This document shows positions 22,168 through 36,973 of a stretch of 47,564 nt of DNA, in pieces (position 1 is the stretch's first letter; the number at the start of each line of letters is the position of its first letter). Origin of the DNA: a virus. The notes under the pieces were generated by a model. It was given only the letters and a program-made list of their open reading frames with translations, had not been told where the DNA came from and did not search any database. The position numbers and the translations under genes are program-made. Location: IMG/VR virus record IMGVR_UViG_3300046318_000570, positions 1 through 47,564 of that record; one strand, 5' to 3'.

Positions 22168-22180
22168 TATCTTCTAACGG

Positions 22181-22234
22181 TTGACTGGGGAGGCAAAACT
22201 CTCTACAATAGACTTAGGTCCTTTGTAGAGAGTT
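22181..22234 (+). promoter_or_regulatory. Promoter overlapping a perfect terminator hairpin
   Basis: TTGACT (22181-22186), 17 bp, TACAAT (22204-22209) drive the HTH gene at 22244. The same bases form an 11 bp perfect hairpin ACTCTCTACAA/TTGTAGAGAGT (22198-22233) followed by TTTTTG, which terminates the upstream operon. Confidence 0.7.
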
Positions 22235-22243
22235 TTTGTTTTT

Positions 22244-22492
22244 ATGAGTGAAAAAGAACAGCCAGTGAAAATCGTAGTCGTAGCAGAACGGCTTGGTGTA
22301 ACTAGTAAGACGGTCTATAACTGGATCGAGAATGAGTACCTTGTAACGGTCAAACCTGGATATGTTCTAGAATCTCAAGCACGGCGTGCTCAAGTCATAG
22401 CCCATGATATGAAAGTCGACGGAGCAAAACAGCGAAGTAGTATGTTCGCTAGAGACCGTTCAGGACACTTCAGTTTCCTAAAACACAAGTAG
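22244..22492 (+). CDS. MerR/excisionase-like helix-turn-helix protein (82 aa)
   Basis: Residues 9-32 (VVVAERLGVTSKTVYNWIENEYL in parts) form a winged HTH like those of excisionases and small MerR-type regulators. The C-terminal half is basic (RDRSGHFSF). It could direct a recombinase such as the one at 7884, or regulate transcription; the context does not decide. Confidence 0.7.
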   Translation: MSEKEQPVKIVVVAERLGVTSKTVYNWIENEYLVTVKPGYVLESQARRAQVIAHDMKVDGAKQRSSMFARDRSGHFSFLKHK

Positions 22493-22682
22493 GGTATAGT
22501 TCAACGGATATCATTTCGTTGTTAATGATAAGAGAAATACCTTCCGTCACCCTCTCCGCGAGCAAAAATTCGTTCCAACTCCAACAGATAACTCACACGA
22601 TTTGACTTCGGGTAAAATTACTACTGGCGTCTACTTAGTCACAGACCTCTCCCCAGCTGGCTAGGTAGGCGTCTTTTAATCT

Positions 22683-22706
22683 CAATAGCGGCGTGCATCT
22701 AGTACG
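22683..22706 (+). repeat. 24 bp direct repeat, copy 1
   Basis: Matches 22821-22844 with one mismatch (core GGCGTGCATCTAGTACG), 138 bp apart. Confidence 0.8.
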
Positions 22707-22820
22707 CGCTACACTGCTAATAAATAATAAAAGCACAAACTTAACAATCCTCAACTTCTCACTAATACTTCGAAGTTAACCGACGGATCTAGATTTCAAT
22801 AACTCAACCTCTTTTGAAAT

Positions 22821-22844
22821 CAATAACGGCGTGCATCTAGTACG
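22821..22844 (+). repeat. 24 bp direct repeat, copy 2
   Basis: Second copy of the repeat at 22683. Both lie in the non-coding stretch before the terminase-like gene and could be binding sites for packaging or regulation. Confidence 0.8.
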
Positions 22845-23020
22845 GTAGCTCTGACTTCCTATCAACAGTTAATCCTTAAAACGGCGAGCGCGTCTTCGAT
22901 CTTTTGAACAAATAAATAAACTATAATAAGCTTTATAAGTTCAACTTCTAATCAACCGTTAAAAGCTTTGTTATCATTAACACCAGGACCTTACCACCCA
23001 ACGGAGGAGTTACAAGTCAC

Positions 23021-23935
23021 ATGTTCGAGAAAGATGATGAGCATCCTGAATACACAATCGACGAGACTTTAGATCTAAGACCAGATCTAAGCTTGATCGG
23101 CCTGGAAGAAGTAGAGAAGGGTGTATGCGAGGACAACTATCAAAACCGTGCTATCCTTCGAAAAGCAAAGCTGAGCTGGGACCCCGTCTATTCAGACAAC
23201 GGAGTTCCAACGGGTCTCATCAGAGCTCGATCAAAAGAAACAACCATCGAGCGACGTATACAGTCTTTAGCCGAGAAGCGACCGATCATGGTTGTTCCAA
23301 CCGACCACAACTCAGATTTCTTAACAGGCCTGGATCTTCTAGCTGAAGAAGCAACGGACTATTTAGTTCCACCATGGGTGATGCACTCAACCCGCCTCTA
23401 CTTAAAAGAACAAGAAGAGGGTTACAACAATCCAAAGCGTCAACCGCTATGTCAACCTCATCGCTGCAGACACATCAAAGATGACGGTATTCGTTGTATG
23501 TTATGGAGCTCGGGACGTCCAAAGGATGACGGCCTGTGCCGCATTCACTTAAGATCAACTCAACATAAAACTAGTGATGACATCGAACGGGCCCGCAACA
23601 AGTTGATGCAAGCTGCACCGTATGCTGTAGACAAGCTTGAGGAGTTGATGGAGTTCGCGGAGTCAGAACCTGTTAAGCTCAAAGCTGCAACGGAGATCCT
23701 GGATCGAGCTGGTGTACGTGGTGGAATTGAGATAGACTCGAATATTAATATCGACGTGCGGCCTGCAGCTTCTGTAATCGCGGAACGTTTAAACCGCTTA
23801 GCCTCAGGTGCCGTCGAGTCTGCTGCTAGACTTGCGAATGCAGGTGTTACGGTTGAGCCTGATAAAGAGATCCTGGATGCTGAAGTTGTTGAAGACGGAG
23901 AGCTCCAGGAAGAGACAACAACAACAAAGGATTAA
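23021..23935 (+). CDS. Small-terminase-like protein (304 aa)
   Basis: The C-terminal half has the helical pattern AAPYAVDKLEELMEFA, EPVKLKAATEILDRAG and a beta-turn with DVRPAASVIAERL, as in many actinophage small terminase subunits that bind DNA and recruit the large subunit. A Cys/His cluster (CQPHRCRH, RCMLW, LCRIH) at about 143-176 suggests a zinc knuckle. No large subunit is in the window. Repeats upstream would suit a packaging site, but this is inference. Confidence 0.55.
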   Translation: MFEKDDEHPEYTIDETLDLRPDLSLIGLEEVEKGVCEDNYQNRAILRKAKLSWDPVYSDNGVPTGLIRARSKETTIERRIQSLAEKRPIMVVPTDHNSDFLTGLDLLAEEATDYLVPPWVMHSTRLYLKEQEEGYNNPKRQPLCQPHRCRHIKDDGIRCMLWSSGRPKDDGLCRIHLRSTQHKTSDDIERARNKLMQAAPYAVDKLEELMEFAESEPVKLKAATEILDRAGVRGGIEIDSNINIDVRPAASVIAERLNRLASGAVESAARLANAGVTVEPDKEILDAEVVEDGELQEETTTTKD

Positions 23936-23936
23936 T

Positions 23937-24167
23937 GTGAACTTCGATGAGATCATAGAGCTGGCCAGACTCCATCTGCTGAATGCATTAGCGGACATCA
24001 ACAATGCATCAACCAGGATCGAACACATTCGATTAACGGCCCTTGCCCAGGAAGCCGAGATGTTGTATCATGAGCTTGAGAGATTCAACAACGGCCTGAG
24101 TTACTCACATGTGAAGACCGACGGGCCCGCAGCATCTGATGACATGCTTCCACTAATTGAAAGTTAG
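23937..24167 (+). CDS. Hypothetical helical protein (76 aa)
   Basis: GTG 23937 right after the previous stop. Helical (LARLHLLNALADINNA, EAEMLYHELERF); no family recognised. The frame is open further upstream but only as an overlap of the terminase-like gene. Confidence 0.55.
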   Translation: MNFDEIIELARLHLLNALADINNASTRIEHIRLTALAQEAEMLYHELERFNNGLSYSHVKTDGPAASDDMLPLIES

Positions 24168-24208
24168 AGCTGCAGATCCAGATCCAGATCCAGGGAGACA
24201 AACAACGG

Positions 24209-25036
24209 ATGATTAAAAGACAGCAGCGGCCAGTACCCGAACAGGTCCAGGTATTTATAGCAACGGCGCGTAAGTACATCGGATATCAATCCGAATCCCT
24301 GGGACGTAACCAATTCGGTGCGAAGGTTGGGTACGACACCAAACCATGGGACGGCGCGTTCATTGACGTCGTCGCTCGAGAGAGTGGCCTACGTCTACCA
24401 TCTTTGGTTTATACGCCAGCTGCGCTCGCGGAATTCATACGTAACCGAGAGGTCCAAACTCAACCGCGGCCTGGAGATCTAGTCTTCTTCAACTTCTCAA
24501 CAGAGCTAGACGGATTCGGTCCCCCGCATGTCGGCCTGGTGGTAGATGTCCGCAACTTCGAATCAACGGGTGAGTTCCTCGCGATCGAAGGAAACGTTGT
24601 AGGTCCCACTAATTACTCGCAGCAAGATGGCGTGCATCAGAGACTGCGACATTTAACGGATGTTCTCATCTTCGCCCGCCCCGCTGAGCTGCAGGCCTGG
24701 AAGCTATCGACGGATGAACTTCGCACTAAGCTTCGTAAGTTCTTCAGGATCCGCGGCCAGGTAGACTCAACCGAACTTGCTGCCAGCACATTGGTGAAAG
24801 CTGATGCAGTCAAGCCTGGACTTCGTAATAAGAACATCGAACTAGTTCAGATCGCATTGGGCCTGGTAACCGATATCGAAGGTGCCGAACGCGGGAAGTG
24901 GGATATCCCGACGGCGAGCGCGTTTGCTCGCTTCCAACGAAACATTGGAAGAGTTGGCCAGGATGCTGATGGCCTTCCCGACGTCCCAACACTGAACCGA
25001 CTTGGGAAAGAAACGGGCCTCTTCGAATTAAGTTAA
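24209..25036 (+). CDS. CHAP-fold protein with peptidoglycan-binding-like C-terminus; catalytic Cys replaced by Asp (275 aa)
   Basis: Residues about 12-155 follow the CHAP (NlpC/P60-like) amidase layout: KPWDGAFIDVV at 45-55, PRPGDLVFFNF, PPHVGLVVD with His107, then FLAIEGN. In active enzymes the residue after Trp in the first motif is Cys; here it is Asp48. The C-terminal part (about 200-275) resembles a peptidoglycan-binding helix bundle (VQIALG, DGLPDVPTLNRLG). It may bind wall without cutting, or use another nucleophile. RBS GGAG is present. Confidence 0.7.
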   Translation: MIKRQQRPVPEQVQVFIATARKYIGYQSESLGRNQFGAKVGYDTKPWDGAFIDVVARESGLRLPSLVYTPAALAEFIRNREVQTQPRPGDLVFFNFSTELDGFGPPHVGLVVDVRNFESTGEFLAIEGNVVGPTNYSQQDGVHQRLRHLTDVLIFARPAELQAWKLSTDELRTKLRKFFRIRGQVDSTELAASTLVKADAVKPGLRNKNIELVQIALGLVTDIEGAERGKWDIPTASAFARFQRNIGRVGQDADGLPDVPTLNRLGKETGLFELS

Positions 25037-25054
25037 CGGGAAGCTGGAAGCTCT

Positions 25055-25077
25055 CGAGCTCAGATCCAGGTCAACTT
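25055..25077 (+). repeat. 23 bp repeat, copy 1
   Basis: Identical to 25373-25395 (core GAGCTCAGATCCAGGTCAA). This copy is in the spacer after the CHAP-like gene. Confidence 0.85.
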
Positions 25078-25169
25078 TTAACGAATCATTTCATGAAGAC
25101 CCGCGGCCAGTCTTCCTGGCGGCGAGCGCTTTACTTGACATAACGGCATGCCTCAGGTAGGGTTGTCTC

Positions 25170-25463
25170 ATGATTATCAAACCGATGCTGCAAGCACTGC
25201 GGCGTGCACCGCTACACGTAAAACTTCTAACGGTCCTGGCCTGCTTGTACTTGTTGAGTCCGATCGATCTGATCCCCGACTTCATACCAGTGATTGGACA
25301 AACGGATGACCTCGTCGTAATTGGCCTGGTCTTCAGAATGCTGCAGAAGTACTCAACGGATGAGGACCTGGCGAGCTCAGATCCAGGTCAACTTCTCACT
25401 AAGCTTCGAAAGAAGAAGGACTCATCCGCGGGACCTGGTGGCCAGGATGCTGCCAACTTTTAA
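25170..25463 (+). CDS. DUF1232 (YkvA-type) small membrane protein (97 aa)
   Basis: Core motif LLSPIDLIPDFIPVIGQTDD at 29-48 is the signature of DUF1232, followed by a hydrophobic stretch (LVVIGLVFRML). Basic start and charged tail. The function of the family is unknown; it is membrane-associated. The second copy of the 23 bp repeat lies in its coding sequence. Confidence 0.85.
   Translation: MIIKPMLQALRRAPLHVKLLTVLACLYLLSPIDLIPDFIPVIGQTDDLVVIGLVFRMLQKYSTDEDLASSDPGQLLTKLRKKKDSSAGPGGQDAANF
25373..25395 (+). repeat. 23 bp repeat, copy 2
   Basis: Identical to 25055-25077 but inside a gene, where it encodes part of the tail of the DUF1232 protein. Confidence 0.85.
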
Positions 25464-25493
25464 TTAACGGTTCGAAGCTAGCTGAAGGCGGGC

Positions 25494-25522
25494 TTGCACT
25501 GAACGGACCTAAGTGCTATAGT
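25494..25522 (+). promoter_or_regulatory. Leaderless promoter
   Basis: TTGCAC, exactly 17 bp, TATAGT (25517-25522), then 6 nt to ATG 25529. Confidence 0.7.
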
Positions 25523-25528
25523 GGACCC

Positions 25529-25831
25529 ATGAAGAAGAACCGCTCAGAATTTGAATGCCAGGTTGTTTACTGCGACGGAGATTGCTCAGCATTTATATGC
25601 TGGGACTGTGGAGTCAATACGATGCACATCGATGAGTACTACATGGTGCATGACGGGTTGTGGGATGTCGCGACCGAAGACTTCGGCGGGGACGGCATGC
25701 TATGCGTAGGCTGCCTTGAGAACCGCATCGGTGGAAAGCTTGTAGCTAGCGACTTTACGGATGCTCCAATTAACAAAGGAATCTACGGCTTGTCGGCCCG
25801 CTTAGCTCAGCGTCTGTCAACTTTTGATTAA
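25529..25831 (+). CDS. Cys-rich hypothetical protein (100 aa)
   Basis: Cys at ECQVVYCDGDCSAFICWDCG and CVGCLENRIG suggest one or two zinc sites. The second half (HDGLWDVA...GGDGMLCVGC) resembles unnamed phage proteins. Leaderless start. Last part of the palindrome-rich island. Confidence 0.7.
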   Translation: MKKNRSEFECQVVYCDGDCSAFICWDCGVNTMHIDEYYMVHDGLWDVATEDFGGDGMLCVGCLENRIGGKLVASDFTDAPINKGIYGLSARLAQRLSTFD

Positions 25832-25947
25832 GACGGCTTGGGAGTCGAAGATAGCCCGCGGATCCGAAACAACGCACTAACGGTGAAAAGTTCGCAGCGA
25901 TCTGAGCTCATCAAATCACACCACAAAACTTGTTGTACGCTAACCGT

Positions 25948-26250
25948 ATGAAGTCATTTGAATTGCATCTAATACGCGGCGAGCACGATGTCGAGCTTGC
26001 CATCCTCGCTGGTCTGATGGAACGGGAGCATGTCCCAACGGACTGCGCGAACTGCACCGACGAGGTGGGACCGCTGGTTGGTGAGTTCTACAGTTACGCC
26101 TTCATACTGTCCGACGAAGAAGAGTGGGCCGTGTGTATTGATTGTGCTGCCAGCGTGCTGGAGCCTGAGGGTGATGACGGGTATGTCGAGGACACTTCTT
26201 ATGAACTAGATGCTTACGCATTCTTTGATAAAGAAGATGACAAAGAATAA
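25948..26250 (+). CDS. Acidic zinc-ribbon protein (100 aa)
   Basis: CANCTDE and CIDCAAS give a four-Cys ribbon; strongly acidic C-terminus. A TTG at 25930 is in frame, but ATG 25948 lies 6 nt after a possible -10 (TACGCT), consistent with a leaderless start. The first upstream box of region C directly follows the stop. Confidence 0.65.
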   Translation: MKSFELHLIRGEHDVELAILAGLMEREHVPTDCANCTDEVGPLVGEFYSYAFILSDEEEWAVCIDCAASVLEPEGDDGYVEDTSYELDAYAFFDKEDDKE

Positions 26251-26313
26251 GTTTTCACTTTTTCAAAAAACTTCATAAAACCGATTTGAAATGTCACGGG
26301 GATGTGCTACTGT
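26249..26313 (+). promoter_or_regulatory. Boxed promoter 1
   Basis: Upstream box 26249-26268; TTGAAA 26286-26291; 16 bp; TACTGT 26308-26313. Drives 26345. Confidence 0.65.
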
Positions 26314-26344
26314 TTGAGTATCCAATGAAAGGACGGATACACAA

Positions 26345-26887
26345 ATGCACGTATGCCAAATCATGCTTGTCGAAGCAGACACTGCCTTAGAGGCGTTTGA
26401 GAAAATCTACGAGAAACTATCTGGCGAGAGCCAACCTAACTGGTCAGACTGGCACAATGTTGGCAACCCTGAAAGCCTCAACTACGCAGGTCGCTGGACT
26501 AATCATGTGTTCAAACTAGATGGCGCGATTGAGGATGGGACTGAACTTTCACCTAACTACTTACAGTATTCAGATGACACTGCTCTTGCTGAAAAAGTCA
26601 TTGATGACTATCTAGCCCAACGCAAGAAAGACATGGACGACTGTCGTAAAGAGATGGTTGACCTATCTACTGCTCCGTATGACCCACTTATAAGTGAGTG
26701 GAAAGACCCAAACCACATGGGCATTTATTACGCAAAGAAGCTCGCCCAACTTCTGAGCAATGAGTGGACACCAGATACTGGTATCTACGACCTAGATAGT
26801 TGGACTGCCTCTCTCGCTTACTTTATAGAGCGTGTCAAAAAAGCACCTGAGAAGCAGTGGCTAATCCCAGTGGACTTCCACTTTTAG
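26345..26887 (+). CDS. Hypothetical protein (180 aa)
   Basis: ATG 26345 after AAAGGA. Trp- and Asp-rich soluble protein (NWSDWHNVGN, YAGRWTNHVF). No family recognised. First gene of region C, under boxed promoter 1. Confidence 0.7.
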   Translation: MHVCQIMLVEADTALEAFEKIYEKLSGESQPNWSDWHNVGNPESLNYAGRWTNHVFKLDGAIEDGTELSPNYLQYSDDTALAEKVIDDYLAQRKKDMDDCRKEMVDLSTAPYDPLISEWKDPNHMGIYYAKKLAQLLSNEWTPDTGIYDLDSWTASLAYFIERVKKAPEKQWLIPVDFHF

Positions 26888-26935
26888 AGCGTTACCATTT
26901 CGTTATAAAAAATCTAAAAAAATACCTAGCAGGAT

Positions 26936-26964
26936 TTGACAACTTCAAAACACTCGTGTAATGT
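26936..26964 (+). promoter_or_regulatory. Consensus promoter without box
   Basis: TTGACA, 17 bp, TAATGT (26959-26964). Drives 27011 and probably the ATPase at 27529, 26 nt further on. Confidence 0.8.
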
Positions 26965-27010
26965 CGGTCTTGTTGGAAAACCAACGAACCAAAAAAATAG
27001 GACGGAAACT

Positions 27011-27502
27011 ATGAACCCGATTGAAACAGAAGCAACCACTTCTGCTGGCAAGATTGTCGGCAAGGGGCTTTATCTGGAACTTATCCCAGAGGGTGACAAC
27101 CCAAACAACAAGACCACTCAAATCTTGTTCACTCCAGAGGGCTTTGATGAAAAGGGCAACTATGTGCCTTTCACTCTCCACTCTCGCACTGTGGCTGATT
27201 ACTCACCACGCAAGCAGTGGCGACTATCGAAGTCACCTACTGACAACAAGACACTATTCCTATCAAGCGAGCCAATCTCTGCCGAGATTGCGACTAGCAC
27301 TGCTAATGGAATGGCAACTCGCTTTGAGAGCCTGTTGAAGCGTCAGGTTGCTTATGGTCTTGTCGTTCGCAACAAGCCTATCGTTGTAGAGATTACTTCG
27401 ATTGACCTGTCAGATGTTACTGACTGGAAAACACCACCTGCGGCTCTACGCCGTATTCAGAAAGCACGAGTATCTTTGGGTTTCCCAGAGAAACTGGTAT
27501 AG
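27011..27502 (+). CDS. Hypothetical protein in ATPase operon (163 aa)
   Basis: ATG 27011 after GGACGGAA; an in-frame start at 26936 lies inside the promoter. Soluble alpha/beta protein without a recognised motif. Its position before the MoxR-type ATPase suggests a partner or substrate of that module. Confidence 0.7.
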   Translation: MNPIETEATTSAGKIVGKGLYLELIPEGDNPNNKTTQILFTPEGFDEKGNYVPFTLHSRTVADYSPRKQWRLSKSPTDNKTLFLSSEPISAEIATSTANGMATRFESLLKRQVAYGLVVRNKPIVVEITSIDLSDVTDWKTPPAALRRIQKARVSLGFPEKLV

Positions 27503-27528
27503 TCAAAAAGAAAAGGACGGAAAATAAA

Positions 27529-28554
27529 ATGACTATCTCACCTGTAACCACCACTGAACCAGACCTTGATACACTGTATCCAGAACTATCCAAGTTGGTC
27601 TTTGGTGTCGCTGTTCAAGCCTTGAACCCTAGCGAGCCACTTATCGCTGGTCTTGACCCACTGCTACCAGTAGCAGGACGAGCCAACCTGCGAGCAAAGG
27701 CTGGCTCTGGGGCAACCAAGAAAGCAACCAAGTCTATGCCTGTAAATGTCGAAGCCCTATCTGGCGAGGCAAAATACTCACGACCTAATGGCGAGGATTA
27801 CTACTCTCGCACTTGGGGCGACCACTCTGATGTAGAGGTTCTACGCACTGCCCGAAGCAACAACAAGTTTGTGTTGCTCTATGGCAACCCAGGGTGCGGT
27901 AAGACTGCTCTAGTTGAAGCCGCTTACCCTGACGAACTTTACACCATTCTTGGTTCGGGCGACACCGAAGTTAGCGACCTTGTTGGTGGCTATGTTCAAA
28001 CTCCTAGTGGAAACTACGAGTGGGTGGACGGAGCATTGGTGCGAGCCGCCGAGGAGGGTAAGGTCTTGCTGATTGACGAAATCGGTTTGATTGACCCAAA
28101 GGTTCTCTCGGTTGTCTATGGTCTTATGGACGGACGCAAGGAGTTGGCTGTAACTGCTAACCCAGAGCGAGGCACTATTCACGCCCAAGAGGGATTTTAT
28201 GTAGTTGCGGCTACTAACCCTAATGCGGCTGGTGTCATTCTGTCAGAGGCTCTACTCTCTCGTTTCACTATCCACGCTGAAATGACAACTGACTGGGGTC
28301 TTGCTAAGAAGTTGGGCGTTCCTGCTCCTGCTGTAACTGCGGCTCAAAACCTTGCTAAGAAGCAAGCCTCTGGTGAAGTTTCGTGGTCGCCTCAAATGCG
28401 TGAACTCCTAGCGTTCCGTGATGTGACTAGCCTGTTCGGTCAGAAGTGGGCTATCCAAAACCTAATCGCTGTTGCTCCAGAAATGGATAGACCAGTGGTT
28501 GTAGATGTGTTCAATCGTGTGTTCGGCGAAACTTACTTGCCAGCCAAGATTTAG
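27529..28554 (+). CDS. MoxR/CobS-type AAA+ ATPase (341 aa)
   Basis: Walker A GNPGCGKT at 119-126, Walker B LLIDEIG at 180-186, sensor-like VVAATNPNA, and an arginine-finger-like LLSRF. The N-terminal about 85 residues are low-complexity and specific to this protein. MoxR ATPases work as chaperones that insert metal or remodel complexes together with a VWA protein, and one follows at 28683. RBS AAAAGGACGG. Confidence 0.9.
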   Translation: MTISPVTTTEPDLDTLYPELSKLVFGVAVQALNPSEPLIAGLDPLLPVAGRANLRAKAGSGATKKATKSMPVNVEALSGEAKYSRPNGEDYYSRTWGDHSDVEVLRTARSNNKFVLLYGNPGCGKTALVEAAYPDELYTILGSGDTEVSDLVGGYVQTPSGNYEWVDGALVRAAEEGKVLLIDEIGLIDPKVLSVVYGLMDGRKELAVTANPERGTIHAQEGFYVVAATNPNAAGVILSEALLSRFTIHAEMTTDWGLAKKLGVPAPAVTAAQNLAKKQASGEVSWSPQMRELLAFRDVTSLFGQKWAIQNLIAVAPEMDRPVVVDVFNRVFGETYLPAKI

Positions 28555-28611
28555 CACTATCCGTCCAGTGCTAATGGGTGGGTGGGTGTCAAAAGTTTTT
28601 TGAGAATGAAC

Positions 28612-28641
28612 TTGACACCCACCAAACACCTGTGCTAGTTT
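28612..28641 (+). promoter_or_regulatory. Consensus promoter without box
   Basis: TTGACA, 18 bp, TAGTTT (28636-28641), 42 nt before ATG 28683. Confidence 0.8.
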
Positions 28642-28682
28642 TCTAACTGGAACGAAACAAACCCAATCGAAAGGAAATAGAA

Positions 28683-30503
28683 ATGGGTCACTTTTCAAGA
28701 ATGTCGGAACGCAAGAGCGAAACTCCGACTGAATGGCTAAAGGTCTGTGCTGACATTGGTCGCCTCGCTAACGAGTGGGCTGGTCGTAATGACCTAGCAA
28801 TCTATGGTGGTAGCGACACTGCTAATGGTGAAGCCCTTGCCGCTTTTTACGCTGATGTTGCGGAAATCGAAATCAACCTGCCTGTGGCTTTTGGTAGCAC
28901 CACTCGCCCAGAAATCGTTGGCGACTTGAATGAGCGTAGCCAGCAGTATGAGTTTCCAGAGGCGACTGGCGTTATCTTACACGAAGCAACTCACGCTCGT
29001 TGCTCGCTCTGGAATGTCAAGTCTTTTGACGAAGTGCCAGACCTAGAGCGTCAGGCGTTTTGGCTTTTGGAGGAGGGTCGCATTGAGCGTCTTGCTGTAA
29101 TCGCCTACCCAAAGAATGTGCTATTCCTACGCTCGTCTGCTTTGAACCTTGCTCTCGCTGACACCAAAGACAATCTTGAAAACTTGTCAGAGGTGCGAGG
29201 TGCGGCTCTACTCGCCGCTTTGTGTATGTCACGAGTGGACGCTGGCGTTTTGGAAATGTCAGATGTTTCAACTATCTACAAGAAGTTGATTGACATTCTT
29301 GGTCAGGAACTTTTTGACAACCTGCGTAGCGTCTGGATTGACTTTCAGAAACTCCAGCACTTCTCTCACGCTGACCTAGACACTGGCAAGGCACTTGCTA
29401 AGAAGTGGGTTGAACTTTTGCGTGAGGCTGACCCAGAGGGCGAGCCACAAGAGGGTGGCTCTGGTTCTGCTGGCGAGGGTGACGAGGGTAACGAGGGTGG
29501 CTCTGGTTCTGCCCTGTCTGAACTTATGGAGGCTTTGGCAGAAGCAAGCGAACAAACTGCTAGTGAAACTTCTGGCGACCTAGAGAGCCAAGAGCGTAAA
29601 GAGAAGTGGGAGCAAGAGGCTAAGGTTCGCTCCAACCAGACCAAGACTTCTAACAAGAACAAGGAAACTGCTAACAAGGTATTTAGCACTTCGTCTGGTG
29701 CTGGTGGCGAAAAGACCAGTCGCTCAAAACTGGTAGAGGTTCGCAAGCCAACTGGTCAAGAGCGAGCCGCCGCTGTCACAATCGCCAAGATGTTAGAGCG
29801 AGCCAAGTATCGTGATAGAAGCAAGACTGCTGTCAAGACCCACTTGCCAGAGGGTCGCCTAAAAACTCGTGTGGCTATTCAGAACGCCGCTTTGAAGTCT
29901 ATGGGTATCCACGCCGAACAACCTGCTTGGCGTAAGACTGCTCGCAAGCGAACTGAAAACCCTACGCTGACTGTCGGCGTTATGGTGGACATTTCTGGCT
30001 CTATGTCGTCTGCTATGAACCCTATGGCTACTACTGCTTGGGTCTTGTCAGAGGCAGGTCGCCGTATCCAAGCCAAGACTGCTATGGTCTATTATGGCGA
30101 GGGCGTTTTCCCAACCCTAAAGGCAGGGCAACACTTGTCGGAGGTTCGTGTCTATAACGCACCTGACGGCACGGAGGAGTTTGCGACTGGCTTTGAGGCT
30201 CTGGACGGCTCTCTCAACTTGCTCTACGGAACTGGTGCGAGAATGTTGGTTGTGGTATCGGACGGCAACTACCGAAGCGACCAACACGAAAAGGCAACCG
30301 AGTATGTTCGCCAGTGCCAGCAACGAGGCGTTGCGGTTCTATGGATTAGCCCAGAGAACGGCTACTGGTCAAGCGGTGCTAAGTCAATCGTGGCTGGAAC
30401 TAATGCGGCTTATGTGGAGGGGCTGTCGGCTGACGGCTTTGCCCTAGAGATTGGCAAGGCGGCTACCCAAGCACTAGAGGCGGTTGGCAAGAGCCAACGC
30501 TAA
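28683..30503 (+). CDS. Metallopeptidase-like plus VWA protein (DUF2201-type, 606 aa)
   Basis: The N-terminal half has HEATH at 100-104, a zincin HExxH motif, with a possible third ligand in LLEEGRIE near 131. A Gly/Glu/Ser-rich and charged linker (250-345) follows. The C-terminal VWA domain carries the MIDAS motif VDISGSMS (D436, S438, S440) and a later VVVSDGNYRSD. This order matches DUF2201/COG3864 proteins, which pair with MoxR ATPases, as here. The module could remodel or proteolyse a host or phage complex; the target is unknown. Confidence 0.85.
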   Translation: MGHFSRMSERKSETPTEWLKVCADIGRLANEWAGRNDLAIYGGSDTANGEALAAFYADVAEIEINLPVAFGSTTRPEIVGDLNERSQQYEFPEATGVILHEATHARCSLWNVKSFDEVPDLERQAFWLLEEGRIERLAVIAYPKNVLFLRSSALNLALADTKDNLENLSEVRGAALLAALCMSRVDAGVLEMSDVSTIYKKLIDILGQELFDNLRSVWIDFQKLQHFSHADLDTGKALAKKWVELLREADPEGEPQEGGSGSAGEGDEGNEGGSGSALSELMEALAEASEQTASETSGDLESQERKEKWEQEAKVRSNQTKTSNKNKETANKVFSTSSGAGGEKTSRSKLVEVRKPTGQERAAAVTIAKMLERAKYRDRSKTAVKTHLPEGRLKTRVAIQNAALKSMGIHAEQPAWRKTARKRTENPTLTVGVMVDISGSMSSAMNPMATTAWVLSEAGRRIQAKTAMVYYGEGVFPTLKAGQHLSEVRVYNAPDGTEEFATGFEALDGSLNLLYGTGARMLVVVSDGNYRSDQHEKATEYVRQCQQRGVAVLWISPENGYWSSGAKSIVAGTNAAYVEGLSADGFALEIGKAATQALEAVGKSQR

Positions 30504-30574
30504 CAAGAAGTCTGGTAGGGTAAGGCGAGCCTGTTTCGTTCCCCCATTTCTCAAAGGTTCGTCCTGCCAGATAG

Positions 30575-30620
30575 AAACCCACCAGTAATCCTTTCGGCTG
30601 GTGGGTTTCGCTTTCCCCGA
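30575..30620 (+). terminator. Strong terminator after the VWA gene
   Basis: Perfect stem AAACCCACCAG/CTGGTGGGTTT at 30575-30608, followed by a T-containing tract. Confidence 0.75.
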
Positions 30621-30650
30621 AAAAAACCAGAAAAAACTTTTCGTTAGAAG

Positions 30651-30680
30651 TTGAATAATGTCGCAGACCTATGCTAAGGT
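30651..30680 (+). promoter_or_regulatory. Promoter without box
   Basis: TTGAAT, 18 bp, TAAGGT (30675-30680). Drives the four-gene run from 30708. Confidence 0.65.
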
Positions 30681-30707
30681 AGAACTACCGAACGAAAGGA
30701 AAACGGA

Positions 30708-30983
30708 ATGTGCGACAAGTGCGAAAACCAGATTGACGGTCAAGATTTAGACGACCACGAAATCGCTGGCATTGCTCTAGCAATCATTGGAGGAATGATT
30801 GAGGGCTATTGCGAGGAGGGCTACTGCGACCCAACAATGTATCAAGCATTGGAAATGGCGGAGAAGTTGGCTCGCAAGATGAACGAAACTGGTCTGGCAG
30901 AACGCCTGACTATCGCCAAGATTTTTGCTGGCGAAACTATCAACACCCTGATTGCCGAACACGAAGCCGAGGAGGCGAACTAA
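30708..30983 (+). CDS. Hypothetical protein (91 aa)
   Basis: ATG after GAAAGGAAA. CDKC at the start and EGYCEEGYCD in the middle; helical second half (ALEMAEKLARKMNE). Similar in style to the next gene. No family recognised. Confidence 0.7.
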   Translation: MCDKCENQIDGQDLDDHEIAGIALAIIGGMIEGYCEEGYCDPTMYQALEMAEKLARKMNETGLAERLTIAKIFAGETINTLIAEHEAEEAN

Positions 30984-31234
30984 TGGTTTTCCCAGAGAAC
31001 ACCGAGCGTGAACAAGAACTGCGTGAAGCACTCCTGTCACTTGCGGCTGGCATTGCCAGTATCGCAGAAGCCGAGGCTGGCTTAGACATGCCAACGGAAA
31101 CCGCTGACATGATTCTCGGCGAGGCTATTGAGATTCTTGGTAAGTTGTTTATCGGCGAGGAGCAAGACCTTTTGAACGGTCTGGTCGAAGCCAAGATTAC
31201 GATTCAGGATTCACTAGAGGAGTTTGTTTACTAA
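30983..31234 (+). CDS. Acidic helical protein (83 aa)
   Basis: TAATG coupling to the previous gene. Ala/Glu-rich helices (SLAAGIASIAEAEAG). The second half parallels the preceding protein, so the pair may be distant duplicates. Function unknown. Confidence 0.65.
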   Translation: MVFPENTEREQELREALLSLAAGIASIAEAEAGLDMPTETADMILGEAIEILGKLFIGEEQDLLNGLVEAKITIQDSLEEFVY

Positions 31235-31497
31235 TGAGCAAGTTTTATTTCGCCGAGGACGGCAACTGGGGTAGTGCTGACGGATTGGCCATTGTGGACA
31301 CGGCTGGGCTAGACGAACACTTCATGGACTACATTGACTCCATTCGTGAGTATCACCTCTCGGCTTGGGCGGCTTGGTTTGTGGACAATAACCACCCAGA
31401 GCCAGCGGACTTTGACGGCGAGTGTCACTACTGCGAGAGTTACGAGTCTGGTTCACTCGCCGAGATTGACGCTATCAACGCAAGCGAGGAGGAGTAG
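31234..31497 (+). CDS. Acidic protein (87 aa)
   Basis: TAATG coupling. Asp/Glu- and Trp-rich, with CHYC near the end. No family recognised. Confidence 0.65.
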   Translation: MSKFYFAEDGNWGSADGLAIVDTAGLDEHFMDYIDSIREYHLSAWAAWFVDNNHPEPADFDGECHYCESYESGSLAEIDAINASEEE

Positions 31498-31500
31498 CCC

Positions 31501-31683
31501 ATGCCAACATTCGCTGTAAAAATCTACGAAACCGTCATTCACATGGTTGATGTCGAAGCTGCTGATTCCAGTGACGCTTACAACAAAGCCTACGAGATTG
31601 TGACCAACGGACAGCAGGACGAATACGATACCGAAGCCGAGGGCTTCACTGGTGACTATTCTGTCGTTCAGATTTCTGACTGA
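31501..31683 (+). CDS. Small beta-rich protein (60 aa)
   Basis: ATG three bases after the previous stop. Resembles a short DpdA/DUF-like beta-alpha-beta module (FAVKIYETVIHMVDVEAAD, then YNKAYEIV), as also seen at 40894 and in the C-terminal part of 31748. No name assigned. Confidence 0.6.
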   Translation: MPTFAVKIYETVIHMVDVEAADSSDAYNKAYEIVTNGQQDEYDTEAEGFTGDYSVVQISD

Positions 31684-31688
31684 AGGAT

Positions 31689-31718
31689 TTGACAAACTTC
31701 AAAAGACTGGTGTAAAGT
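31689..31718 (+). promoter_or_regulatory. Consensus promoter without box
   Basis: TTGACA, 18 bp, TAAAGT (31713-31718), 29 nt before ATG 31748. Confidence 0.8.
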
Positions 31719-31747
31719 CGAACTATCACCAAACGAAAGGGGCAGTA

Positions 31748-32755
31748 ATGCCAAACTGGGTAGACAACTGGGTAGGTATTTCAGGAACAGAAGCAGACCT
31801 AACTGCGTTCTTGGAAAAGGCTGGAAAGCCTTACCCAACTAAGCACTCCAACTACAATCCTGAAACCAAAGAGTATGAGCAGGTAGACGCTACCAACGAA
31901 AGCCCATTCTCATTCTGGAACTTCATTGAGCCAGAGGACAAAGAGGCTTACTTTGGTAGCCCAAGTGGCAACAAGCCAGAGGGTTACGAGGGTTGGACTT
32001 CGGAGCAGAAAATGGCACACGACCTAAAGTTCACTGGCAATGGTTGGTATGACTGGAATGTTCGCAACTGGGGAACTAAGTGGGACGCTAATGATGTCAA
32101 TGTAGACGAGGTTGTTACTGACGGAAAAGGCAACGCTTCTGTGTCCATTACTTTCAACACGGCGTGGTCTATTCCAGAGCCGATTTTCAAGGCTATGGTC
32201 GAACAGCACCAGACACTCTCATTCGACTTTGAGTGCGAGGAGGAGCAGGGCTGGGGAGCAAAGTTCACTGCCACTGACGAGGACGGCGAGCGTTCTCTAA
32301 CTATGATTGAGGAGTGGGACATCCCCGACTGCCACGCTGACTACGACTCTCGTGGTCGTGAGTGTGTCTGCTCTTGGGACGACGACGAGGAGAACTGGTA
32401 TGAGGACTGCCCAGCACTGGTGAAAGAGTTTGCCGTAGTTGTATCTCGCACCTACTCAATCAAGGCTACAAGTGCCGAGCGTGCTTGGGAACTTGCCCAA
32501 GACCAGTTACTAAACGGCGAGGGCAATCTGCCAGACGGCGTGGAGGTTTTGGACGAGGACACGGTGTTCGTCAAAGACTTGCTAACCAACGAGCGTATCT
32601 TTCCAACAACGGTGGAGGGCGAGGTAGTTGAGAAAGTCTGTAACCACCACTATGTCCCAGTATCAACTTCTAAAGACGGCGTGATTGTAGACACTGGATA
32701 CACCCAGTGCGTCCACTGTAACGACAAGATTATCAAAGACGGCGTGGAGGTCTAG
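31748..32755 (+). CDS. Api92-like protein (335 aa)
   Basis: ATG 31748 after GAAAGGGG; earlier in-frame starts lie in the promoter. The start MPNWVDNWVGISG, the FIEP segment and NVRNWGTKWDA match the ferredoxin-like domain of Api92/YubB-type proteins found in phages and plasmids (function unknown). After about residue 215 a second module (EFAVVVSRTYSIKATSAERAWELA) and a C-terminal CNHHYVP...CVHCND zinc pair follow. Confidence 0.75.
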   Translation: MPNWVDNWVGISGTEADLTAFLEKAGKPYPTKHSNYNPETKEYEQVDATNESPFSFWNFIEPEDKEAYFGSPSGNKPEGYEGWTSEQKMAHDLKFTGNGWYDWNVRNWGTKWDANDVNVDEVVTDGKGNASVSITFNTAWSIPEPIFKAMVEQHQTLSFDFECEEEQGWGAKFTATDEDGERSLTMIEEWDIPDCHADYDSRGRECVCSWDDDEENWYEDCPALVKEFAVVVSRTYSIKATSAERAWELAQDQLLNGEGNLPDGVEVLDEDTVFVKDLLTNERIFPTTVEGEVVEKVCNHHYVPVSTSKDGVIVDTGYTQCVHCNDKIIKDGVEV

Positions 32756-32756
32756 T

Positions 32757-32996
32757 ATGCCAAAGCACTACACGGAGCGAACCGAAACAACCTACGAGGT
32801 AGTAACGAACTTCGGACAGGTTGTCCAGATAACCCACAATCCGTCTGTCAAGACCGTAGGTCTTGCCCTGATACACGCTAACGGTGAAATCGCTGGTGAG
32901 ATAGAGTTCACTGTGCGTCACGCCGCCGAAGCACTCGCAGAGATTTTTGGTGACCTTGTGACCAATCAAGAAATCTACGAGGACGACAACCGATAG
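32757..32996 (+). CDS. Hypothetical protein (79 aa)
   Basis: ATG two bases after the previous stop. Thr/Glu/Val-rich beta start, helical end. No family recognised. Confidence 0.65.
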   Translation: MPKHYTERTETTYEVVTNFGQVVQITHNPSVKTVGLALIHANGEIAGEIEFTVRHAAEALAEIFGDLVTNQEIYEDDNR

Positions 32997-33005
32997 CAAA
33001 AGGAT

Positions 33006-33035
33006 TTGACACGAACTAAACATTCGTGCTAAGTT
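33006..33035 (+). promoter_or_regulatory. Consensus promoter without box
   Basis: TTGACA, 18 bp, TAAGTT (33030-33035). Drives 33075. Confidence 0.8.
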
Positions 33036-33074
33036 GGATTTGTTAGCCCACTGATGTAACTGAAAGGACTTCTA

Positions 33075-33449
33075 ATGGCAAACAAGAGCGAGGCAGCAAA
33101 GACTGTTCTCACCAGCACCACCAGTGACAACCTTGTTGTCCTAACCCCTGCTATCCAGCGTCAGGTGAAAGCCTTGCGTGAGGGTCGCAACCTTGCCAAG
33201 CAAGCCAAAGCAATGAGCGACCCTGCTCGTCTAGCAATCTTGGACTTTCTTGGTTTGGTATCTACCAACCTGATTGGAACTGACGCAAAGGGAAAGCGTT
33301 TGATTTCAGTCAAGGTCGTTGAAAGTTCAGAGAAGTTTGACTGGGAGGCTTTTGCCAAAGACCAGCCAGAGCTTCACGAGGCTCTCGTCAAGCAATACAC
33401 CATTCCCAAAGGTGCTGGCGACCCACAACTCCGAGTTGATGTAATCTAA
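33075..33449 (+). CDS. Hypothetical protein, paralogue of 43739 (124 aa)
   Basis: Shares TSTTSDNLVVL, ALREGRNLA and DAKGKRLISVK with the protein at 43739, plus the same length and order. Helical N-terminal half, beta centre. No family name. One of very few duplicated genes in the window; it has a consensus promoter, whereas its paralogue has a boxed one. Confidence 0.75.
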   Translation: MANKSEAAKTVLTSTTSDNLVVLTPAIQRQVKALREGRNLAKQAKAMSDPARLAILDFLGLVSTNLIGTDAKGKRLISVKVVESSEKFDWEAFAKDQPELHEALVKQYTIPKGAGDPQLRVDVI

Positions 33450-33466
33450 ACTCGGTTCACAAAGAA

Positions 33467-33515
33467 AACGCTGACAGGCTCTTTCCCCCCCTTTCACCCT
33501 GTCAGCGTTTTTCTT
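33467..33515 (+). terminator. Strong terminator
   Basis: Perfect 12 bp stem AACGCTGACAGG/CCTGTCAGCGTT (33467-33478 with 33498-33509), then TTTCTTTTT. Confidence 0.9.
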
Positions 33516-33534
33516 TTTGTCTGGAGGACTCCAG

Positions 33535-33620
33535 CAAGTTTTCACTTTTTCAAACTACAAAAGAAAATGCCATTCCACTTTTGATTAGTTGTTGAAAGTT
33601 GTAGGAAAGTATGCTAGATT
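33535..33620 (+). promoter_or_regulatory. Boxed promoter 2
   Basis: Box 33535-33554; dyad C-AAAAG/CTTTT-G (33558-33563 with 33578-33583); TTGAAA 33592; 17 bp; TAGATT 33615-33620. Drives 33649. Confidence 0.65.
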
Positions 33621-33648
33621 CAATAGTGACCTGATGAAAGGGGTTCAA

Positions 33649-34110
33649 ATGAAAATCAAAGAATACGATTTGAATGTGTATGTCGTGGACGGCGTGGCTC
33701 GTCTATCTGCCTACCAATACCAATACAGCGACCACCCAACTAACCCTGAACCTATCTCAACCAAGATGGACAATGACAGTTGGATTACCCTCTCCCTGCC
33801 ACTCGAACCTATGTATCACGAGGAGATGTCTTATCTACTCGGTGATAAGGATTGGCAATCGCAGGATTGGCAAGACTACGACAGCCCTTGGGAAAGCGTG
33901 GAGTGGCTCGACTGTGATGAAGCACCTGCTACTCTGCGTGCTTGGGTGAATGGCCTGCCTGAATACGAGCCAGAGGTTGTCCACGATTGGGGAGACCACA
34001 ACCTAGACTTCCCACGCGGTAGTATCTTGGCCGTCCCCTGTAAGAACTGTGACGCGACCTATGATGTTCGCCGTCTATCGTTTGACGAGATGAACGGCTT
34101 GGGTATCTGA
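33649..34110 (+). CDS. Hypothetical protein (153 aa)
   Basis: ATG 33649 after GAAAGGGG. Trp/Asp-rich (WQSQDWQDYDSPWESVEW), C-terminal CKNCD. No family recognised. Overlaps the next gene by one base. Confidence 0.7.
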   Translation: MKIKEYDLNVYVVDGVARLSAYQYQYSDHPTNPEPISTKMDNDSWITLSLPLEPMYHEEMSYLLGDKDWQSQDWQDYDSPWESVEWLDCDEAPATLRAWVNGLPEYEPEVVHDWGDHNLDFPRGSILAVPCKNCDATYDVRRLSFDEMNGLGI

Positions 34111-34478
34111 TGTCTACGAAGCAGGAGAGTGCGTTCTATCAAACGGATAAATCACCAGAGTGTGTCTGGAGTCGCTGGGATGATAGCGACCCATACTCCG
34201 TCTATCGTTGCGGGGAAATGTTGATTATCTACACCGACACAAACGGCGTGGTGACTTACCTGCGAACAACTGATGACCTAGCCGAAGTTGGAATAACGGA
34301 TGACGAGGCGCTCGCCGAATACACCGCTAAGGGCGAGGAAGTCTTTTGCTGGCGTAATAACTCTTGGTTTGAAATCTGGGACGAGCGCAACGGCGTGTTC
34401 CTAGATGATGTTTACCACGAACTTGACGAAGCCGTTGAAAGAGCAATACACTTGAATGACCGAGAGAAAGGGTTGTGA
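34110..34478 (+). CDS. Hypothetical protein (122 aa)
   Basis: TGATG coupling to both neighbours. Acidic, aromatic-rich, soluble. No family recognised. Confidence 0.7.
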   Translation: MSTKQESAFYQTDKSPECVWSRWDDSDPYSVYRCGEMLIIYTDTNGVVTYLRTTDDLAEVGITDDEALAEYTAKGEEVFCWRNNSWFEIWDERNGVFLDDVYHELDEAVERAIHLNDREKGL

Positions 34479-34768
34479 TGTTGAACTATCACGAAGCATT
34501 GGGACAAGTTATCCGAGAGAAGCGTTTGGACTTAGGTCTGAGTATGCGACAGGTAACTGAATACATTTCAATAGGACACTTGTCTGAAGTTGAACGAGGC
34601 AAGAAAGAACTGTCAAGCCGACACCTGCCGTTAGTGGCACGAGGTCTTGGAATAGAGGCGCACGAGTTGGTTCTGCTTGCTGGGTATCGTATGGCTGGCT
34701 GGGACATTCCAGACACGGCAAGCGAGTTGTTTGACGAATACGCCGACCTTATGGTAAAGTCGAACTAA
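34478..34768 (+). CDS. XRE/Cro-CI family regulator (96 aa)
   Basis: HTH of the XRE type at about 8-62: ALGQVIREKRLDLGLSMRQV, then the recognition part YISIGHLSEVERGKKE and LPLVARGLGI. A GTG at 34475 directly precedes the ATG. It may control the boxed promoters or be an early regulator; no operator is assigned. Confidence 0.85.
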   Translation: MLNYHEALGQVIREKRLDLGLSMRQVTEYISIGHLSEVERGKKELSSRHLPLVARGLGIEAHELVLLAGYRMAGWDIPDTASELFDEYADLMVKSN

Positions 34769-34789
34769 CCACAGATGAAAGGCGTGGAA

Positions 34790-34921
34790 ATGGAAAAGAC
34801 AGATTGCTACAAGTGCGGCACGGAGATTGAAGCACCGCAGGGTTCGGTTCACCCACTCTGCTCGGATTGCGAAACTTCGTTTGACGCTTGGTTCGCTCTA
34901 GCACTTCAGGGAAAGGCATAG
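34790..34921 (+). CDS. Small zinc-ribbon protein (43 aa)
   Basis: ATG 34790 after GAAAGGCG; ATG 34775 is in frame. CYKCGTE and CSDCETS form one four-Cys ribbon. Ends two bases before the next ATG. Confidence 0.6.
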   Translation: MEKTDCYKCGTEIEAPQGSVHPLCSDCETSFDAWFALALQGKA

Positions 34922-34923
34922 AG

Positions 34924-35292
34924 ATGTCGGAAGAAACTTACACGGAACGAACTGTGTGTCTTGGCTACTGTGCCGTGGACAGCGGACAGATTCTAATAAC
35001 CGACCCAGGCTACCTAAACGGCTGGGGGACAGAGGGATACGGCGAGGCTTACATTGGTCACTACTCATACGGTGGTGCTTGTGCGACTACTCTCGCTGAA
35101 CACAAACACCCAAACGGACAACTAGAGTTTTCTGGTGGTCGTGCTGGGGCTGGCGTGGTTTCTAACTCTGGTCTTGGTGACGGATACTATCCTGTCTACG
35201 CAACCATTCGTAACATTGACGGCTGGGGCGAGCGTGTGACTAAACTTGAAATCGTGTTCATTGACGACGACGGCGAGGACGAGGACGAATAA
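34924..35292 (+). CDS. DUF4241-like phage protein (122 aa)
   Basis: ATG 34924. AVDSGQILITDPGYL and GAGVVSNSGLGDGYYPVYA are typical of DUF4241-related phage and bacterial proteins of unknown function. Acidic tail (DDDGEDEDE). Last protein gene of the operon begun at 33649. Confidence 0.7.
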   Translation: MSEETYTERTVCLGYCAVDSGQILITDPGYLNGWGTEGYGEAYIGHYSYGGACATTLAEHKHPNGQLEFSGGRAGAGVVSNSGLGDGYYPVYATIRNIDGWGERVTKLEIVFIDDDGEDEDE

Positions 35293-35555
35293 TAGACTTG
35301 CCTAGCACGGATTGCCCCGAGGGACGCCGAGGTCTGCTGGTTCTGTGTGTGTTCTAGACACCGCATACAGAGTTGGACGCAGTTGCCTACAATGCTAGGG
35401 AAACCGACAGAAGTGTCGCTAAACACGGAGAGCCACTCTTGAACCTGAATGTCAGTAGCGAAATGGACTTGTCCACAAAGCGAACGCTAACCAGAAACAA
35501 GTAGTGGCTTTCCCCCTCTAGGGTGAGATAACGCATTGTGCTTTTCTCACCCTTT
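35293..35555 (+). ncRNA. Possible structured RNA or 3' leader segment with terminator
   Basis: A 263 bp stretch without a frame. CCTAGCA (about 35302) pairs with TGCTAGG (about 35393), enclosing TCTGT/ACAGA and GTGT/ACAC helices. It ends in the stem AGGGTGAGA/TCTCACCCT (35520-35553). It may be a processed 3' region of the operon. No known class. Confidence 0.35.
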
Positions 35556-35576
35556 AGGCTTCTCGGGGGTCGGAGA

Positions 35577-35653
35577 AGTTTTCACTTTTTCAAAAGACAC
35601 CAACAAAGAACTAATCATTAGAAGTTGTATTTTTTATCATCAACTGCTAAACT
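35577..35653 (+). promoter_or_regulatory. Boxed promoter 3
   Basis: Box 35577-35597; small dyad CTAAT-C-ATTAG; TTGTAT 35625-35630; 17 bp; TAAACT 35648-35653. Drives 35701. Confidence 0.65.
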
Positions 35654-35700
35654 GAATCCGTCAGCAATACCGCTGGCATTAGGGAAAGGACACCTGCCTT

Positions 35701-36219
35701 ATGGGTATGGATGTTTATGGGAAAAAGCCTACTGACAAAGTTGGCAAGTATTTTCGTGCCAGTGTTTGGTATTGGCATCCGCTCTGGTCTTTCTGCGAGA
35801 ACAAGTTTCCAGAGTTGGCTGGCAAAGTCAAACACGGACATAGCAACGATGGCGATGGCTTGAACGGCGAGGACAGCATACTTCTTGCTGAACTAATCAA
35901 GACGGCTCTCAACAACGGCGAGGCTAAGGAATACCTAGACGAATACAACAAGTATCTGTCTGAACTTGACCGACCAGATTGTTCTATCTGCGAGGGAACG
36001 GGTATTCGAACTGACGCTATCGGAGTAGAGAGTGGCTGGCCTGAAAAGGAACTGTCGCCAGAGATTGCTATTCTCACGGGTCGCACTCACGGGTCTTGTA
36101 ATGCCTGTGCTGGCGAGGGTAAGAGAGACGCTTGGGAAAGCAACTACCCATTCGACCTAGAACTTCTGGCAGAGTTTGCCGAGTTTCTAGCGAACTGCGG
36201 TGGTTTCAAAATCCGCTAA
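35701..36219 (+). CDS. Conserved phage protein with DnaJ-like zinc repeats (172 aa)
   Basis: Opens MGMDVYGKKP, a start seen in widespread unnamed phage proteins, then FRASVWYWHPLW. Two CxxCxGxG pieces (CSICEGTGIR and CNACAGEGKR) form a zinc site around residues 95-140. Function unknown. Confidence 0.75.
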   Translation: MGMDVYGKKPTDKVGKYFRASVWYWHPLWSFCENKFPELAGKVKHGHSNDGDGLNGEDSILLAELIKTALNNGEAKEYLDEYNKYLSELDRPDCSICEGTGIRTDAIGVESGWPEKELSPEIAILTGRTHGSCNACAGEGKRDAWESNYPFDLELLAEFAEFLANCGGFKIR

Positions 36220-36286
36220 TCACGGATTGAGATACGGCTGGGTCATAACGACCTAGCCGTTTTCTCTGCTCGGCGAGGTCTGCGAG

Positions 36287-36363
36287 AAGTTTTCACTTTT
36301 TCAAAAGCAAGATAAAAAATAAACACGGCACGGCTTGCGTAATAACCGAGAGTGCGATAGGGT
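36287..36363 (+). promoter_or_regulatory. Boxed promoter 4
   Basis: Box 36287-36307; TTGCGT 36335; 17 bp; TAGGGT 36358-36363. Weak dyad GCAAG/CTTGC. Drives 36392. Confidence 0.6.
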
Positions 36364-36391
36364 TGGAGTATCCCTTACGAAAGGAAACGAA

Positions 36392-36739
36392 ATGGGAAAC
36401 CGAGCATTTATTCAGGTGACGAGTGAATCGTTCCCTACACCGCTACACCTATACGGTCACTGGTCAGGCGAGGATAATCTTGAGGCTGTCAAGAATGTTC
36501 TAACCCGAACCGACCGCATTGGCGACCCAACATACCTAGCGGCTCAACTGTTCCACGAGTTTGCGGTTGCTCTTGGTGGCTATGACGGAAACCTATCATT
36601 CGGTATCGGCGTGGGTGAGATTGACGAGAGCGATTGGGTGAACGCCCCGACCGTCTATGTGAACGCTGATACAGGTGAAGTGACGGTAGACGGTGAGGAA
36701 ATCGTCATACCTAAGCAACCGCACCAGATAGCCAAATAA
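36392..36739 (+). CDS. Conserved phage hypothetical protein (115 aa)
   Basis: ATG 36392 after GAAAGGAAA. MGNRAFIQV and LHLYGHWSGEDN are typical of a common phage and plasmid family of unknown role. Beta-rich end (VYVNADTGEVTVDGE). Confidence 0.7.
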   Translation: MGNRAFIQVTSESFPTPLHLYGHWSGEDNLEAVKNVLTRTDRIGDPTYLAAQLFHEFAVALGGYDGNLSFGIGVGEIDESDWVNAPTVYVNADTGEVTVDGEEIVIPKQPHQIAK

Positions 36740-36775
36740 GTTTCGCTACTACTCACCCCCCCCTAGTGGTAGCGA

Positions 36776-36885: not shown

Positions 36886-36897
36886 CCGACTCTCGGA

Positions 36898-36973
36898 CAA
36901 GTTTTCACTTTTTCAAAAGCCCTTCACAACTTTCAACGAACCGTTTGACTTTAGACGGCACGGCTAGTAAACT
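36898..36973 (+). promoter_or_regulatory. Boxed promoter 5
   Basis: Box 36898-36919; TTGACT 36945; 17 bp; TAAACT 36968-36973. Drives 37017. Confidence 0.65.

Follow-up and report, generated by a model that had tools for sequence, protein, structure and literature searches.

What role might be played by a 3.4 kb island of palindromes and one-directional words that lies beside more than 20 kb of nearly palindrome-free DNA? The question is raised by the IMG/VR virus record IMGVR_UViG_3300046318_000570, a fragment of a larger phage, the whole of which (47,564 bases) forms the window analysed here. Zone statistics divide the window into three regimes: an ordinary left arm (1–22.5 kb), the island (22493–25930, + strand), which is rich in palindromes and, by word counts, in an oriented vocabulary (ACGGCNNGC, AACGGA, CGGCCTG and CTTNNAACG), and a palindrome desert that begins after a transition kilobase and continues through the end of the record (26931–47564). 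The island–desert pair looks like a control segment for DNA entry or packaging, and the island probably lies at the end of the linear DNA of a large actinobacterial phage.

A preliminary description of the sequence had reported about 30 GATC, about 27 CCWGG and about 25 AACGG almost restricted to one strand of the island. Recounting gave 28, 27 and 24, respectively, with a single CCGTT, where length alone predicts ~4.7, ~3.8 and ~5.6, and the observation is thus confirmed and was even understated. Six-base palindromes, described as frequent in contrast to the neighbouring desert, number 95 (27.6/kb, compared with ~11/kb to the left and 0.3/kb in the desert), with AGATCT (3), CTCGAG (2), CCGCGG (5), GAGCTC (6) and GGGCCC (2) among those concentrated in the island. 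Relative to each zone's own dinucleotides, the observed/expected ratio for six-base palindromes is 1.84 in the island, 0.73 in the left arm, 0.15 at 25931–26930 and 0.02 at 26931–47564. Codon use as the source of this signature was ruled out by 500 rounds of synonymous shuffling in these genes of the island, none of which attained the observed counts of CCWGG (23 vs 7.4 in shuffled genes), AACGG (14 vs 4.3), GATC (20 vs 11.1) or six-base palindromes (69 vs 44). The spacers carry the same excess (AACGG 9 vs 1.3 expected, GATC 8 vs 2.9, six-base palindromes 21 vs 12.8) and palindrome density is nearly equal in genes (28.0/kb) and spacers (26.5/kb), as had been claimed. The 23-bp piece said to be repeated, CGAGCTCAGATCCAGGTCAACTT, is indeed present twice, and repeats in the island gave z values of 9.2–13.4.

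The proposed borders of 22493 and 25930 held up in part. On the right there is a palindrome step at ~25.9–26.1 kb followed by an intermediate kilobase to ~26.9 kb (25931–26930, four-base palindrome observed/expected 0.55), and the change at the island/desert border is abrupt (e.g. from 68.6 to 3.9 palindromes/kb). The left edge is not sharp, with AACGG and the oriented words starting from ~22176–22380. The desert tolerates CTAG and TCGA and has almost no sites for 13 of the 16 four-base palindromes; synonymous shuffling of the desert genes predicts 417 four-base palindromes where 72 are observed. Palindrome depletion as such resembles the restriction-site avoidance seen in phages, from which the window differs in that the depletion is confined to one domain, is near-complete for those 13 palindromes and is accompanied by enrichment next door.

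AACGG represents one piece of a wider oriented vocabulary, the core of which, ACGGCNNGC, occurs 73 times on the + strand and twice on the − strand in a gapped-word analysis of 15 pooled islands; the same analysis yielded CTTNNAACG as a second word. Strand counts (+/−) in the pooled islands are similarly skewed for CGGCCTG (74/1), CGGCGTG (42/0) and CGGCGAG (55/4), all of which are rare elsewhere in the 15 genomes. Circularity was ruled out with a leave-one-out vocabulary derived with the window excluded, whose density in the window is 73/kb on the + strand of the island, 14/kb on its − strand and 4.7/kb in the left arm. The vocabulary partly reflects homologous coding positions, yet it is present in the spacers and in all reading frames. 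ACGGCNNGC is raised in the desert too (50 on + and 18 on −, vs ~8 and ~6 expected), and AACGG was ruled out as a selected word there (18 vs a codon expectation of 16.3). A scan of viral contigs with the vocabulary returned an unspecific pattern of mostly chance-type matches and was not used. In the relative G013, AACGG clusters once more at about 132 kb, in L087–L093 (13 copies within 2 kb on the + strand), distant from the island and without palindrome enrichment.

Relatives were found via the terminase-small-subunit (TerS)-like and endolysin proteins encoded in the island, and are uncultured phage contigs. The preliminary description had proposed looking for the same island among them, and it is present in ~20 (TerS identity 71–83%), at the same genes and with the same oriented words, with AACGG-rich versions also in L066 and L072 at 58% TerS identity. 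More distant relatives and the metagenome-assembled Actinomycetia phage DSL-LC01 (OQ999401) have no island, the former retaining TerS and a hairpin at the left edge (described below) without the oriented words. The island is single-copy per genome in the relatives' contigs of 96–154 kb, of which those of 136–154 kb are circularised assemblies with end overlaps of 124–127 bp, and it adjoins palindrome deserts whose depth differs between relatives. A recent insertion whose source had different modification habits, as had been suggested, would fit the abrupt change in composition; it is refuted by this conservation of island, genes, words and place in ~20 relatives plus the two more distant ones, with the island genes being core genes of the family, and we give it practically no credence. 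The appeal to other modification habits likewise finds no support in the form proposed, since the island shares in genome-wide site avoidance: CCGG is absent throughout the zones counted (left arm, island and desert of the window), and G014 and L026, in which the sequence examined contains no GATC, have none in their islands, which are palindrome-rich nonetheless. L072 likewise lacks GATC in the parts examined. A GATC or Dam-type signal, as in the P1 pac site, was ruled out because GATC-free relatives keep the island, and so were fixed palindromic sites, because positions turn over between relatives. Palindrome positions in the island show no more conservation than those of other hexamers (0.119 vs 0.148), which indicates that density, not place, is kept.

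Where in the genome does the island lie? In cultured Microbacterium phages, the homologue of the gene at 23021 is gene 1, which belongs to the direct terminal repeat (DTR) and is separated from the physical left end by 62 bp, with the endolysin gene next to it and both duplicated at the right end. This arrangement, found in Big4, Cece, Pumpernickel, Zooman and A3Wally, is shared with the window as far as the pairing of TerS-like and endolysin genes, there at the probable genome end, is concerned; these phages differ in having a CobT-like gene before, not inside, the right DTR copy, and Big4, Cece and Pumpernickel (DTRs of 17,669 bp, ~18.1 kb and ~20.0 kb) differ in palindrome profiles with neither island nor desert. 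The desert stops 3–7 kb before the large terminase (TerL) in six relatives of the window clade, and the Big4 DTR stops 6.3 kb before its terminase gene. Contig ends cluster near the TerS-like gene (9 and 7 vs 2.8 expected within 2.5 kb, P ~0.003 and ~0.03) and 3–9 kb upstream of TerL (16 vs 6.0 expected, P ~0.0005; 7 on the control side), the places at which a terminal repeat would be likely to interrupt assembly. On account of the Microbacterium ends, the end of the desert near TerL and these contig-end clusters, island and desert together most likely constitute the DTR; the contig ends close to the TerS-like gene, like the Microbacterium ends, speak against a genome end at the island/desert step and in favour of one at a hairpin on the left edge of the island. 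DSL-LC01 shares the order TerS-like gene, endolysin, small genes, AAA, CobT-like gene and TerL, and differs from the window in lacking oriented words and a palindrome desert. In the DSL-LC01 zones counted, ATAT is absent and TTAA all but absent.

Aligning the DNA of 15 relatives identified a conserved non-coding leader where the island begins on the left (22493–22680, +), with the block GTTGTTWATG...CCCTCTCC.CGCGCAAAA... common to close relatives. It contains a hairpin (22626–22673, +) with the invariant loop word CCTCTCCCC (22646–22654), which sits just before the TerS-like gene in 30 of the 30 members folded. Its stem of 13–25 pairs covaries freely, with many compensatory changes and G-U pairs, fold z values range from −2.2 to −7.1, and the loop is exposed in all 30 members, including DSL-LC01. 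The hairpin has no Rfam match, and scanning the left island edge for tRNA and known RNA found none. By comparison with the Microbacterium phages, it probably marks the position of the genome terminus. The gene that follows (23021–23935, +, 304 aa) was predicted to encode a small terminase, an assignment now backed by profile matches to PHROG 2538 (in 15 of 21 members, best 5.9e-7) and to the small terminase of PDB 7joq (E 5.7e-4).

These elements raise the prospect that the island is a terminase recognition or processing zone, in which words and hairpin would form a long redundant site that sets the packaging end and direction at the DTR border. The TerS-like gene and universally conserved hairpin at the left edge, the Microbacterium physical end at the same spot, the Pumpernickel junction within a hairpin loop, and the polarity of the words, which would suit the directionality of packaging, all speak for such a zone. 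Known pac and cos sites, however, are tens to hundreds of bases long and do not extend over 3.4 kb of genes; the generic enrichment in palindromes, whose sites turn over, would be left unexplained, and the more distant relatives retain TerS and hairpin without the words. We therefore consider a terminase zone unlikely, although it is a serious rival to the reading favoured below. The proposal made at the outset, of an oriented motif zone with a link to packaging or replication, is strengthened by a TerS-like gene that in cultured relatives lies close to the physical genome end, and the zone may serve either packaging or DNA entry.

The other serious rival, to which we assign a rather low probability, is a signal at the RNA level, with the words acting in the sense mRNA of late genes (TerS and lysin), for example as binding sites for an RNA-binding regulator or in late-mRNA stability. 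The words without exception occupy the coding strand, in every frame and in spacers, and the leader hairpin with its G-U pairs is RNA-like; other late genes, including structural ones, nevertheless lack the words, and an mRNA signal does not explain the strand-symmetric enrichment of palindromes. A Chi-like polar signal for recombination or exonucleases, guarding the terminus or joining both terminal repeats, would account for short GC-containing polar words (ACGGCNNGC, with its 73 vs 2) that are confined to the repeat and raised in the desert also. Chi, however, is a single genome-wide word and not a multi-word array of 3 kb, and we regard this explanation as improbable.

The desert provides further indications of function. 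It carries a AAGTTTTCACTTTTTCAAA-type intergenic repeat, promoter-like and found in the desert only, in 19 copies that all lie on one strand (26246–45806, +). The window's AAGTTTTCACTTTTTCAAA element is not common to relatives; every desert examined (n = 8) has its own repeat in 7–36 copies, essentially absent elsewhere in the genome (36 copies of GTATTTATTTTTT in G011, 36 of GTATTCGTTTTTT in G007, 25 in G003, 20 in G002, 15 in G016, 14 in G014 and 7 in G013), with the first copy at the island/desert step in 4 of the 8 (window, G011, G014 and G016). We interpret the desert as an early-type domain whose small genes share a phage-specific, promoter-like element. At its start, a MoxR/CobS-like AAA ATPase and a VWA (CobT-like) protein are encoded (27529–30503), and both are conserved family-wide.

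For the pair as a whole we tentatively favour a two-phase DNA entry like that of phage T5, with the island as a stop or hold signal, while rating its probability below even. The island would be the left-terminal few kilobases of a long DTR, and the desert, with its 19–30 kb of small early-type genes and phage-specific repeat, the rest of that repeat. The desert would enter first and lie unprotected in the cytoplasm, where exposure to restriction would have purged it of almost all restriction-type palindromes. The island, which would form the inner border of this repeat if, as we assume, the right end enters first, would be held at the envelope until early proteins act and so be spared the purge, its one-directional words and palindromes together forming the signal. 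With right-end-first entry, the layout would be the mirror image of that in T5. The features on which this proposal draws, namely composition, orientation, conservation, independence of codon use, one island per genome and a domain-specific repeat, are observed directly; the order of entry, the pause and the words as its cause are what we infer.

Several properties of T5 are in keeping with two-phase entry. T5 has a long DTR with small early genes, as the window phage probably does, and, like the window, a stretch depleted of restriction palindromes that ends in a repeat-rich segment, in T5 the injection stop signal (iss), whose repeats run almost all in one direction. The terminal repeat of T5 is the DNA that enters first, and the T5 record places iss 70 bp from its inner edge; this first-step DNA is palindrome-poor (six-base palindromes 0.64 vs 0.75–0.88 elsewhere), and same-direction repeats are strongly over-represented in iss (z 13.8). 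A published account describes T5 iss in terms of repeats, palindromic motifs and inverted repeats, and links the restriction that T5-like phages undergo to sites within their first-step region (PMC13250531), while the BASEL paper describes T5 as generally resistant to restriction-modification (PMC8594841). The genes and host phylum of T5 are unrelated to those of the window phage, and its depletion is mild where the window desert is nearly palindrome-free. The likeness to the T5 layout is at most functional, and membership of a T5-type system is not established.

A number of observations weigh against two-phase entry with the island as stop signal. The island is coding, 3–4 kb long and 1.8-fold enriched in palindromes, whereas T5 iss is non-coding, ~1 kb long and unexceptional in palindromes (rank 38 of 157 windows). 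DnaA boxes are reported for T5 iss, and the window island has one single-mismatch TTGTCCACA-type site and no cluster. The DTR of SPO1, which served as a second DTR comparator, shows no such zones, nor do the Microbacterium DTRs. In the window clade the evidence for a DTR is indirect, the available sequences being fragments and circularised contigs only. G013, L023 and L030 have a full island and a weak desert, which implies that the island is independent of the desert. Finally, in most relatives depletion is deepest at 6–12 kb from the TerS-like gene and becomes weaker in the direction of the terminase, a gradient that suggests the island side enters first. It is the gradient, weak deserts, zone-less DTRs, DnaA boxes and T5 iss palindromes, none of which fit well, that keep the rivals alive. 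Left-end-first entry would also suit a restriction bait, whereby the island, duplicated and not needed early, would absorb restriction enzymes. The gradient falling away from the island and the generic richness in sites with site turnover are in line with this, but the genome-wide avoidance of CCGG (in the window) and of GATC (in G014 and L026) extends to the island, and words on one strand are left unexplained, making a bait very unlikely.

It is also possible, if somewhat more doubtful than entry in the manner of T5, that in actinobacteriophages a coding terminus with a strand-specific word code acts as a sequence-encoded checkpoint for entry (or end selection) and evolved independently of T5. 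As part of this, and with similar reserve, the code (ACGGCNNGC etc.) may have been kept over long divergence in the same phages that have a near-palindrome-free early domain. To our knowledge, and within a limited literature search, core genes that carry a strand-specific word code and adjoin a near-palindrome-free domain are undescribed.

T5 is the single dominant model system for stop signals, and the mechanism of its own signal is poorly understood (PMC13250531). If two-phase entry is correct, the window phage and its relatives would offer comparative tests a second, unrelated lineage in which the layout is extreme and quantifiable, the motif is defined and natural variants number in the dozens, and restriction pressure could be limited to the part of a genome that is exposed first. 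Should the words instead prove to be a packaging or RNA code, a strand-specific code extending over 3 kb of core phage genes would be equally unusual.

The remaining features of the island and left arm complete the picture. Between leader and TerS-like gene lies a variable spacer dense in oriented words (22681–23020, +), in which CGGCGTGCATCTAGTACG occurs twice. Downstream of the TerS-like gene follow, all on the + strand, a small gene with no family match (23937–24167, 76 aa), a CHAP/NlpC-type endolysin gene (24209–25036, 275 aa; PHROG 21357, E 5e-9; PF05257 match below cut-off) whose homologues in DSL-LC01 and the Microbacterium phages are annotated as endolysins, a DUF1232 gene (25170–25463, 97 aa; PF06803, E 5e-16) and a small conserved gene (25529–25831, 100 aa; PHROG 6053, E 3.5e-16). 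No clusters of sigma-70 promoters above chance were found in the window's island. The left arm is ordinary phage DNA with ribonucleotide reductase, thymidylate synthase, tRNAs and tmRNA. The phage-encoded tmRNA (3466–3788; predicted tag AESRSAFALAA) adjoins a tRNA-Asn, with further tRNAs at 9170–9506, 10574 and 11438, and a manA RNA motif (RF01745, 4069–4251) immediately precedes a polynucleotide-kinase-like gene at 4254.

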